Below are positions 5,158-7,866 of a DNA stretch of 64,000 bases, one piece after another. The translations under genes and the position numbers were made by a program. The DNA is from Friedmanniella luteola (GTDB taxonomy: Bacteria; Actinomycetota; Actinomycetes; Propionibacteriales; Propionibacteriaceae): assembly GCF_900105065.1 (NCBI RefSeq), contig NZ_LT629749.1:1798001-1862000 (forward strand), given 5' to 3'. Within the stretch, counting starts at the first letter, position 1. Each line of letters opens with the position of its first letter. The notes beneath the pieces were generated by a model. The model had not been told where the DNA came from and made no database searches. It was given only the letters and a program-made list of their open reading frames with translations.

Positions 5158-5583
5158 ATGGTGTCCAGGTCGCGGATCCCGCGCTCACTCGGAGTCGGTC
5201 TCGCGACCGCCTTCCTCGCCTCCGGGGTGGTCACCGCCTGCGCGAGCGAGCAGGAGACCTACACCGAGGACGTCTACTGCGCCACCGAGGACGGCACGAT
5301 CATCGACGAGAAGTACTGCGACGACGAGCGCTCGGGGGGCTTCGGCGGCGGCTTCATCTGGATCGGCGGCTTCGGCGGCGGCTGGGGTCCCGGCTACCGG
5401 CTCCCGGCCAGCCAGCGCACGGCCAGCATGCCCTACAACGACGCGGCGGCCCGGCAGCGTGCCGGCCTGCCGGCCACCGGCCGGGTGACCGGCAGCGGCG
5501 GGCTGGGCGGGAAGGTCACCAAGACGCGGGCCTCGAAGGGTGGCGGCTTCGGCGGCTCGTCCCGGGGCGGGAGCGGCAGCTGA
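5158..5583 (+). CDS. DUF1190/YgiB-like lipoprotein
   Basis: The 141-residue precursor has a signal peptide (MVSRSRIPRS, then a hydrophobic stretch) ending in the lipobox VTAC, so Cys28 should be lipidated and the protein anchored outside the membrane. The mature part has two more cysteines (VYCATED, EKYCDD) and a Gly-rich second half ending KGGGFGGSSRGGSGS. This resembles the YgiB/YjfM (DUF1190) family, whose members also end in a Gly/Ser-rich GGFG tail. A GAGGAG ribosome site precedes ATG 5158. Its stop overlaps the ligase start by one base (TGATG). The family link rests mainly on architecture and neighbours. Confidence 0.68.
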   Translation: MVSRSRIPRSLGVGLATAFLASGVVTACASEQETYTEDVYCATEDGTIIDEKYCDDERSGGFGGGFIWIGGFGGGWGPGYRLPASQRTASMPYNDAAARQRAGLPATGRVTGSGGLGGKVTKTRASKGGGFGGSSRGGSGS

Positions 5584-6962
5584 TGGAGCGTCGTCCGAGC
5601 GGCGTCGTCCGCGAGAACTGGCCGGAGATCGTCACCGAGCAGGGGCTCACCTACTGGCAGACCCTGCTGCCCGACGGCAGCACGCGGTCGTACTGGAGCG
5701 AGAGCGCCCACTACGCGTTCAGCGCCGCCGAGGTCGAGCAGATGCACGCCGACCTCGAGACGCTGCTCGACATGTTCGTCACGGCCGGGGACTTCATGCT
5801 GGCCCACCCCGAGCTGATGGACCGGATGGGCATCCCGGGCTTCGCGCGGCTGGAGATCGCCCGCAGCTGGGACCGCCGCGACGCCCAGGGCGAGCCGGTC
5901 GACTGGGGCAGCGTCTACGGCCGGATCGACGCCGTCTACGGCGGCAACCGCTTCCTCGACCTGCAGACCACCGACGCCCAGGACAAGTTCGACGACGCGC
6001 TGGGCCGCATCCGGCTGTACGAGTTCAACGCCGACACCCCGACCTCGCTGCTCGAGACCGCGATCGTCCAGTGGAGCTGGTTCGAGGCGACGAAGCAGGG
6101 CGAGGACCAGTGGAACGGCGTCTTCGAGATGCTGGTCGACGCGTGGAAGCGCAACCTGGCCCACGCCGAGCGCGAGCTGGGCCGCAAGCCCGTCGTCTAC
6201 TTCGCCTGCACCTGGTACGACAACCTGCTGCCGGAGTTCGTCGAGGCCGTCCCGGCGGAGCAGCGGGCCGAGATCCGCGTCGAGGACTGCTCCTACGAGG
6301 ACCTGCAGAACCTGCGGGTGATGCAGGAGACCTGCCGGCAGGCGGGCTATGAGACGGAGTGGCTCTACGTCGAGCAGATCCACCTGGGTGCGGACGGCCG
6401 CTTCTACGACGGCCGCTTCCCCGACGGCGAGCAGCGGCACCTCGACGTGGTGTTCAAGCTGCACGCCTGGGAGCACATCTGCGCGGAGCCGTTCGGCGAG
6501 GCCGTGTTCGCCGACATGGCCAAGCCCGGCGGGACGATCTGGATCGAGCCGCCCTACAAGATGCTCTGGTCGAACAAGGGCCTGCTGCCGGTGCTCTGGC
6601 AGCTCTTCGGCCGCGACGCCGAGCGGAGCAAGCTGCTGATCCCCGCCTGGTTCGACGGCGACCAGCCCGAGGGGCTGGCCAGCTACGTGCGCAAGCCGCT
6701 GCTGGGGCGCGAGGGCGCCAACGTCACCGTGGTCGTCGACGGCGAGACCGTGCTGAGCACCCCCGGTCCCTACGGGGACCAGGCGTGCGTGGTGCAGGCG
6801 TACGCGCCGCCGCCCGACTTCGTCGGCTTCGAGGGCGACAACTACCCGACCCTGGGCCTCTGGTACGTCGACGGCGAGCCGGCCGGGCTGGACCTCCGGG
6901 AGAGCCCGGGCGTCGTCGTCGACAACCTCAGCGTCTTCGTGCCGCACGTCATCCGGGGCTGA
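5583..6962 (+). CDS. Glutathionylspermidine synthase-like ATP-grasp ligase (YgiC/YjfC family)
   Basis: This 459-residue protein aligns by eye with the ATP-grasp half of glutathionylspermidine synthase (RENWPEIVTEQGLTYWQ; RLYEFNADTPTSLLET; GGTIWIEPPYKMLWSNKGLLP; FVGFEGDNYPTLGLWYVDG). The family joins a carboxylate to an amine via an acyl phosphate. Stand-alone YgiC-type members lack the amidase half of the E. coli bifunctional enzyme. Actinobacteria normally use mycothiol rather than glutathione, so glutathionylspermidine is an unlikely product; an amide bond on a peptide or on the partner lipoprotein is possible (inference). It is translationally coupled to the DUF1190 gene upstream, with DUF350 28 bases downstream. 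Confidence 0.82.
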   Translation: MERRPSGVVRENWPEIVTEQGLTYWQTLLPDGSTRSYWSESAHYAFSAAEVEQMHADLETLLDMFVTAGDFMLAHPELMDRMGIPGFARLEIARSWDRRDAQGEPVDWGSVYGRIDAVYGGNRFLDLQTTDAQDKFDDALGRIRLYEFNADTPTSLLETAIVQWSWFEATKQGEDQWNGVFEMLVDAWKRNLAHAERELGRKPVVYFACTWYDNLLPEFVEAVPAEQRAEIRVEDCSYEDLQNLRVMQETCRQAGYETEWLYVEQIHLGADGRFYDGRFPDGEQRHLDVVFKLHAWEHICAEPFGEAVFADMAKPGGTIWIEPPYKMLWSNKGLLPVLWQLFGRDAERSKLLIPAWFDGDQPEGLASYVRKPLLGREGANVTVVVDGETVLSTPGPYGDQACVVQAYAPPPDFVGFEGDNYPTLGLWYVDGEPAGLDLRESPGVVVDNLSVFVPHVIRG

Positions 6963-6990
6963 GCGCCCTCCCCACCACCGAGGAGGACCC

Positions 6991-7866
6991 GTGCTCGACT
7001 ACCTGCGCGCCACCCTGGAGAACGCGCCGCCCGCGGCGGCCAGCCTGCTGCTGACCCTGGTCGCGGGCGGCCTGCTGTGGTTCGTCCACAACCGGCTGAC
7101 CCGGTTCGACGACCACCAGGTGCTGTTCCGCGACGGCAACGCCGCCTACCTCGTGCAGCGCGCCGCCCTGGTGCTCGGGTTCGGGGTCGCCGCGCTGCCG
7201 CCGACCACCCGGACGGCCGACGACCTGCCCTGGTCCAGCCTGATCGGCCAGGCCTACGAGCTGGCCTGGGTGGTGGTCGCCTTCGTCGCGGTCCGCTACG
7301 TCGTCGACCTCGTGCTGCTGCGCCGGGTCGCCAACGACGAGGAGCTGCTCCGCGGCAACGTCGCCCTCGGGGTGGTGGAGGCCGGCTTCTACCTCGGCTT
7401 CGGCTTCATCCTCAACGGCTCGCTGACCGGCGCGTCGCCGACGGTGACCCAGGGCCTGGCCAGCACCGTCGTCTTCGGCTGCCTCGGGCTGGCCCTCGTG
7501 GTGGCCGTGTTCTGGCTGCACGAGGCCGTCACCCCGTGGAGCATCCGCGAGGAGCTGCGGGTCGGCGGCCTGACCGCGGCCTTCGAGGCGGCCGGCGTCC
7601 TGGTCGCGGTCGGCGTCGTCGTCCGCGAGGGGGTGGCGGGCGACTTCACCGGCTGGGTCGTCGGCTTCGAGGCGTTCACGGTGACCGCCGTCGTCGCCGT
7701 GCTCACGCTCTACCTGTTCCGCTGGGTCGCCAACCGGCTGCTGCTGCGCGGACTCACCCTCGCCACCATCCAGCGTGAGCACCGGGTCGTCGCCTCGGCC
7801 TTCTCCGCCGTCGTCACGGTGGTCGTCGCCGTGCTGGTCGCCGCGGTGGTCCGCACCCAGCTCTGA
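6991..7866 (+). CDS. DUF350 membrane protein (YjfL-like, duplicated)
   Basis: The 291-residue protein is almost entirely hydrophobic with about eight membrane segments. It seems to consist of two DUF350 repeats: both halves show a polar N-terminal loop followed by three or four helices, and its length is about twice that of single-repeat YjfL. No catalytic motif is visible. GTG 6991 has an excellent ribosome site (GAGGAGG) eight bases upstream. It is the last gene of the operon with the ligase and DUF1190 lipoprotein, which suggests a membrane platform or transporter for the ligase product (inference). Confidence 0.75.
   Translation: MLDYLRATLENAPPAAASLLLTLVAGGLLWFVHNRLTRFDDHQVLFRDGNAAYLVQRAALVLGFGVAALPPTTRTADDLPWSSLIGQAYELAWVVVAFVAVRYVVDLVLLRRVANDEELLRGNVALGVVEAGFYLGFGFILNGSLTGASPTVTQGLASTVVFGCLGLALVVAVFWLHEAVTPWSIREELRVGGLTAAFEAAGVLVAVGVVVREGVAGDFTGWVVGFEAFTVTAVVAVLTLYLFRWVANRLLLRGLTLATIQREHRVVASAFSAVVTVVVAVLVAAVVRTQL

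Follow-up and report, generated by a model that had tools for sequence, protein, structure and literature searches.

A predicted ATP-grasp ligase of Friedmanniella luteola and the C-terminal tail shared by exported proteins encoded beside its relatives

What does a ligase related to glutathionylspermidine synthase (GspS) act upon when it is encoded next to an exported protein that belongs to no Pfam family? This question is raised by a three-gene locus of Friedmanniella luteola, located within a 64,000-nucleotide stretch of contig NZ_LT629749.1 (positions 1,798,001 to 1,862,000; hereafter the window). The locus encodes an exported partner protein, a predicted ATP-grasp ligase and a membrane protein with DUF350 repeats (Table 1). 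The partner protein ends in a Gly/Ser-rich tail, and a tail of this kind is the element common to most of the proteins encoded beside related ligases, even where no other similarity between those proteins is detectable. Judged from these comparisons, the end of the neighbouring protein is the likely target of the ligase.

A C-terminal tail common to most partner proteins

The window partner has a signal-like N-terminus with the lipobox-like string VTAC at residues 25–28, two Cys residues within an acidic stretch, and the tail KGGGFGGSSRGGSGS. An earlier reading of this DNA, made without database searches (the sequence-only reading), had described the lipobox and the GGFG tail correctly and had labelled the protein DUF1190, an assignment that was rejected. 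No Pfam family, and so not PF06693 (DUF1190), matched the window partner at E ≤ 1, whereas YgiB of E. coli scored 187.4 bits against DUF1190. NCBIfam provided only a sub-threshold TrbK match and PHROGs nothing useful. The window partner does carry a GGFG-type C-terminal tail like that of the DUF1190 proteins YgiB and YjfM, though such a tail is no official criterion for DUF1190. The actinobacterial partners at L018, L028, L034, L037, L050 and L098 did not match any Pfam or NCBIfam family above cut-off. Inspected by eye, many actinobacterial partners have two Cys and acidic residues ahead of a WYYGG-like stretch and appear to form an unnamed family.

The tail first came to notice among 15 relatives of the window, where most partners contain GGFG near a Gly/Ser end. 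The E. coli ligases YgiC and YjfC adjoin proteins with an RGGFG/RGGYG...GG tail (YgiB and YjfM), and YjfM ends in SRGGYGRSSSARGHWGG. Partner ends resemble DRGGFGCSGSGGG in Streptomyces, ERGGFGTHLAACGG in Micromonospora, SRGGFGGSATGRSFGG in Rhodobacterales and IRGGFGRSGFSFGG in phages. On a first pass, 91 of 120 loci satisfied a GG[FYWHL]G rule combined with a signal-like start, and the remaining 29 mostly contained a variant motif or an exact motif that was lost to the start rule. The loci added to the 15 relatives comprised the best 80 of 586 confirmed related loci, loci from two phylum samples and 24 stretches of annotated records, including E. coli K-12. Of 188 loci, 17 were excluded (L121–L137: weak matches, duplicates and loci of other searches), leaving 171, and a ligase open reading frame (ORF) is present in 170 of these, L120 being the exception. 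The 170 loci span Actinomycetota, Pseudomonadota, Bacteroidota, other groups and phages, and were split at 350 bits into a main family (144) and a remote one (26).

The motif was scored in the last 45 residues of the adjacent exported ORF. Within the main family, RGGFG is found at 95 of 144 loci, GGFG at 107 and [GS]G[FYLIW]G at 128; the corresponding counts for the 1998 other ORFs of the same loci are 2, 12 and 32, a control that is rough because many of these ORFs are probably spurious frames. One of the two background ORFs with RGGFG is the true partner at L110. Shuffled tails would be expected to yield 0.35 RGGFG motifs against the 95 observed. Streptomyces is over-represented among the loci; when the main family is clustered at 60% ligase identity, the motif is present in over half of the members in 29 of 35 clusters.

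The 128 motif-bearing partners are also alike in what surrounds the motif. An R stands just before it in 106 partners, and its distance to the end is 7–11 residues in 110. They terminate in G (93), S (34) or A (one), and the last two residues are [GS][GS] in 125 (GG 91, GS 27, SS 7). Such an end is exhibited by 57 of the 1998 background ORFs, and composition would predict a mean of 26.7 and a maximum of 39 over 200 shuffles. The bodies of the same partners fall into five groups of 103, 14, 8, 2 and 1 members, with no similarity detectable between groups by BLASTP. A lipobox-like string is found in 101 of the 128 under a loose rule and an N-terminal membrane anchor in the others, and the tail is therefore expected to lie outside the cell. 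A search of the genome for other tail proteins with a DNA pattern returned 5 + 5 places, compared to 8 + 4 for the reversed control.

The ligase and its known relatives

The description of the second protein as GspS-like is borne out by a PF03738 match of 344.9 bits (curated cut-off 29.3; E 8.1e-103). PF03738 is its sole domain, covering residues 13–457 of 459, and no amidase domain was identified. The best PDB matches by sequence are the E. coli proteins YgiC (2.8e-51) and YjfC (2.2e-44), to which the window ligase exhibits 35% identity in alignment. Foldseek analysis of the predicted model (predicted local distance difference test, pLDDT, 83.8; predicted template modelling score, pTM, 0.87) placed YjfC (7uk6) first (E 3.8e-35), followed by YgiC and GspSA. 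The best structural matches are 7uk6, 7uk8 and 7uka, with a TM-score of 0.87 normalised by YjfC.

In a 30-row alignment, window residues R114, D116, E147, N149, K332, K371 and R439 correspond to R316, D318, E330, N332, K498, K533 and R598 of GspS, seven kept residues that we take to be ATP/Mg sites. The positions of GspS S335, S337, T441 and T446, presumably the glutathione site, are occupied by T, T, L and H in the window ligase. By alignment and model, the window ligase is intact and has the predicted YjfC/YgiC/GspS fold, and it is not degenerate because the aligned ATP/Mg positions are kept. The sequence-only reading had named two grounds for doubt that bear on this, a loss of ATP-grasp catalytic residues and the making of glutathionylspermidine; the residues are kept on alignment, and nothing points to a use of glutathione.

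RefSeq names both YgiC and YjfC (7uk6, 7uk8, 7uka) peptide--spermidine ligases, and the window locus resembles theirs in the ligase family, the fold and a neighbour with an RGGFG/RGGYG...GG tail. It differs in that the window ligase is about 70 residues longer, with insertions, the partner belongs to another family, DUF350 is doubled and located downstream, and searches of this genome did not find the customary genes for spermidine. With E. coli GspSA (Gss), the window ligase has in common the PF03738-type fold and the aligned ATP/Mg residues, but it lacks the amidase domain and has other residues where GspS presumably binds glutathione, and the gss locus, used as a control, has no neighbour with such a tail.

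Two plasmid loci encode the ligase in other settings. A lone PF03738 homologue on an Azospirillum argentinense plasmid (L147, 2956–4107) has lost the catalytic residues that align with D318, E330, K498 and K533 of GspS and may have another role; no tail partner was seen in the stretch covered, in keeping with a pairing of the tail with intact ligases. On a Roseomonas haemaphysalidis plasmid (L146, 1709–5480), two tandem ligases are followed by DUF350 and DUF1190 genes, and the partner ends in SRAGFGATGRSYSSGG.

Operons of ATP-grasp, DUF350 and DUF1190 genes have been linked to phage shock protein (PSP) stress (Ravi et al. 2024, PMC11237479), and in the part of that paper available to us they contain the same three functional parts as the window trio. 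The window trio differs from them in having a partner that is not DUF1190 and, on inspection of its flanking genes, no adjoining PspA/CesT-type or polyamine genes. The C-terminal tail is not mentioned in the available part of PMC11237479. The window locus had been put forward as the best candidate for an undescribed system. That wording goes too far: its E. coli relatives already bear the annotation peptide--spermidine ligase, and operons of this composition are described in the accessible text of PMC11237479. The family of the ligase, the activity of its E. coli members and the operons with DUF350 and DUF1190 are thus known already; the shared tail appears to be new, as it was not found in the literature searched, which included few subscription journals.

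Proposed reaction and competing explanations

We propose that the ligase and its tail partner form a C-terminal protein-capping pair, accompanied by an accessory membrane protein, and we give this reading a probability of roughly 0.6 on comparative evidence. The C-terminus is the proposed acceptor and RGGFG its handle, because a ligase of this family adjoins a protein whose only widely shared part is the C-terminus. The cytoplasmic ligase would recognise the tail through R/K-G-G-F-G, mostly 7–11 residues from the end, and the C-terminal Gly/Ser carboxylate would be placed in the active site. ATP would phosphorylate this carboxylate and an amine would attack the acyl-phosphate to form an amide, such that the mature exported partner would carry a polyamine or some other amine at its end rather than a carboxylate. 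The modification would precede passage of the partner end through the membrane, for which the partner has a signal with a lipobox or an N-terminal membrane anchor. The DUF350 protein is dispensable; it may serve to position the product, to export it or to sense it. It is from the comparisons above that we infer a tail that is a substrate beyond a docking site, as well as its chemistry, its timing and the amine. The sequence-only reading had suggested that the ligase may modify the exported protein; comparison of the tails strongly backs this prediction, and the ligase keeps the ATP/Mg-aligned residues.

There are precedents for such chemistry. In the available part of PMC10979984, GspS is described as phosphorylating a peptide C-terminal carboxylate that is then attacked by an amine. 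The same text describes peptide aminoacyl-tRNA ligases (PEARLs), for which descent from ATP-grasp enzymes is proposed, and which activate a peptide C-terminus as an acyl-phosphate before an amine-bearing unit is added; as described there, PEARLs differ from the window ligase in using aminoacyl-tRNA, in acting in natural-product pathways and in belonging to another family. By analogy with the E. coli homologues, spermidine would be the precedent amine. In Achromobacter phage Motura (L153, 1303–4896), genes for a homospermidine synthase, a tail lipoprotein and the ligase are followed in the same row by a small gene and by one for a DUF350-like membrane protein, which suggests that the phage may supply its own polyamine for the ligase.

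Extended beyond the window, it is slightly better than an even bet that RGGFG-x(7-11)-Gly-Gly/Ser is the substrate mark of a widespread, unrecognised modification in which bacterial and phage ATP-grasp ligases would amine-cap exported proteins before export. A bolder, speculative form would place the amine on a macromolecule or lipid, with the GG-ending tail resembling a putative conjugation tag. We know of no natural peptide previously assigned to the spermidine-peptide ligases of E. coli, and the tail on the adjacent gene names a concrete candidate. If correct, capping would identify what YgiC and YjfC act on naturally, add a new way for bacteria and phages to alter exported proteins, and provide a function for YgiB/YjfM, DUF1190 and the unnamed actinobacterial family.

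Several observations weigh against this proposal. The 350-bit line was set after the scores were known, and the motif classes were shaped after the tails were known. The fixed motif rule misses 16 of the 144 main-family loci, in each of which visual inspection shows some tail: exact RGGFG in L058 and L110; RDGFG, RNGFG, REGFG, RQGFG or NAGFG in L073, L080, L082, L090, L113, L138 and L162; RGGFF in L010; RGGAG in L063; and only a weak tail in L031, L032, L158 and L163. Counting in favour of the tail is phage DSS3_VP1 (L151), the single main-family locus at which no partner was noticed: its ligase gene is the last complete one on a linear record, a lipoprotein begins just beyond it at the record end, and a protein with the matching tail end TGGFGRSATASRGGSFGG lies at the record start. 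The 26 remote loci have no RGGFG, no GGFG and the loose [GS]G[FYLIW]G in 12, and no tail partner was seen in remote L147, L166, L173, L174, L177, L181 and L184, some of which have flanks of 1.5 kb. The ligase is cytoplasmic whereas its partner is exported. S-adenosylmethionine decarboxylase (AdoMet_dc) and OKR_DC_1 were not found in the genome by a search that did not extend to uptake or other routes, and spermidine synthase (Spermine_synth) reached 21.4 bits, below the cut-off of 22.9. A read-through fold of tail plus ligase gave a tail pLDDT of about 25 and no docking signal, with poor geometry; it speaks neither for nor against binding, because the tail end is tied to the ligase start and the alignment has 17 rows.

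Other explanations of the tail account for part of these data. The tail could be a docking or regulatory site through which the partner recruits the ligase to the membrane or acts as a sensor, the ligase itself producing a small peptide-amine metabolite. Small peptides can be substrates, in line with the annotation of the E. coli relatives, and a docking motif need not be an acceptor. We nevertheless consider this unlikely, because docking alone leaves the fixed C-terminus (two Gly/Ser in 125 of 128) and the narrow spacing (7–11 residues in 110 of 128) unexplained, and a cytoplasmic enzyme would meet an exported partner only briefly. Gly/Ser-rich tails can also be structural, and the tail might serve sorting, anchoring, assembly or protease resistance while the ligase acts on another target, both within one envelope-stress pathway; in other bacteria, such operons are tied to PSP envelope stress in the accessible text of PMC11237479. 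This is rather improbable: across loci the tail is consistently accompanied by the ligase, whereas DUF350 is found at 52 of 170 loci and PspA-like genes in some annotated loci only, and the motif is far more frequent than composition predicts (95 cases of RGGFG against 0.35 expected).

That the ligase is a true GspS or a degenerate relative, as its family name and PF03738 might imply, is very improbable, since the amidase part is absent, the four positions aligned with S335, S337, T441 and T446 are changed, and YgiC is stated to be without GspS activity in the available part of PMC12506659; the kept ATP/Mg positions argue against degeneracy. Scarcely any weight falls on the Gly-rich end as a by-product of the ligase ribosome-binding site within the upstream gene. 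Many partner genes do run into the ligase start or end close to it (within about 30 nucleotides in 105 of 128), but [GS][GS] ends are kept in 16 of 17 partners that end at least 40 nucleotides upstream and in all six located downstream, which refutes this as the sole cause. Among the near partners, the last two positions hold 171 Gly codons, mainly GGC (133), with 12 GGA and 10 GGG.

Distribution, DUF350 protein and locus layout

Among 20 genomes of the genus, the ligase (PF03738), the partner and DUF350 each occur in five, namely the same five (G000, G003, G004, G014 and G018), and none of the three occurs in the other 15. Presence of the trio is all-or-none, and the absence of co-conservation in relatives that had been raised as an objection was thus not observed. 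PF03738 is patchy more widely, being found in 15 of 57 relatives, in 26 of 396 genomes sampled across the phylum, with 25 above cut-off, and in 32 of 395 genomes of the phylum to which G451, the source of a Chitinophagaceae locus, belongs. It also occurs in 164 plasmid-collection records, some of which are chromosome-sized, and in 135 phage-collection records, some of which are bacterial contigs.

The window membrane protein matches PF03994 (DUF350) with 105.1 bits over two stretches and gave two separate matches in the genome search, confirming the two repeats first described. No other DUF350 was found in the genome by this search. DUF350 does not belong to the system at every locus: it is present at 52 of 170 ligase loci, a lower bound given the home-built profile and the 1.5 kb flanks of many loci. 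An obligate role is ruled out by this count, and DUF350 is regarded as accessory for the same reason.

Table 1. Predicted features of the ligase locus, in window positions
Feature	Positions	Strand	Remarks
Exported partner protein, probably lipid-anchored, 141 aa, no Pfam family	5158..5583	+	93% identical copy in G018; remoter copies in G003, G014 and G004
VTAC, lipobox-like, Cys 28 (residues 25–28)	5230..5241	+	By eye; the L015 relative has LTAC
C-terminal tail KGGGFGGSSRGGSGS with GGFG (5542–5553) and Gly-Ser end	5536..5580	+	Proposed recognition motif and acceptor carboxylate
ATP-grasp peptide-amine ligase (PF03738), 459 aa	5583..6962	+	PF03738 match, alignment to GspS, fold
Membrane protein, two DUF350 (YjfL-type) repeats, 291 aa, GTG start	6991..7866	+	PF03994

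Gene order varies between loci. Rhodobacterales loci L185–L188, L141 and L142 have a reversed order, with the ligase first and the tail protein downstream. In a remote Bacteroidota subfamily (L175, 90–1475, and L183), the tail partner is large (about 460 residues) and lies downstream of the ligase, and a double DUF350 protein is encoded upstream in some loci, such as L183.

A promoter and terminator scan of the window locus found none. The coordinates first reported for the trio are confirmed, as are its two junctions: the stop codon of the partner (TGA, 5581–5583) has one base in common with the ligase ATG at 5583, and 28 bases separate the ligase stop from the DUF350 gene. The genome contains one PF03738 gene. 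The trio is flanked by genes for an amino-acid permease, a TRAM/tRNA U5-methyltransferase, an S9 peptidase (opposite strand) and an aconitase, and since these are unrelated to it, the trio stands alone.

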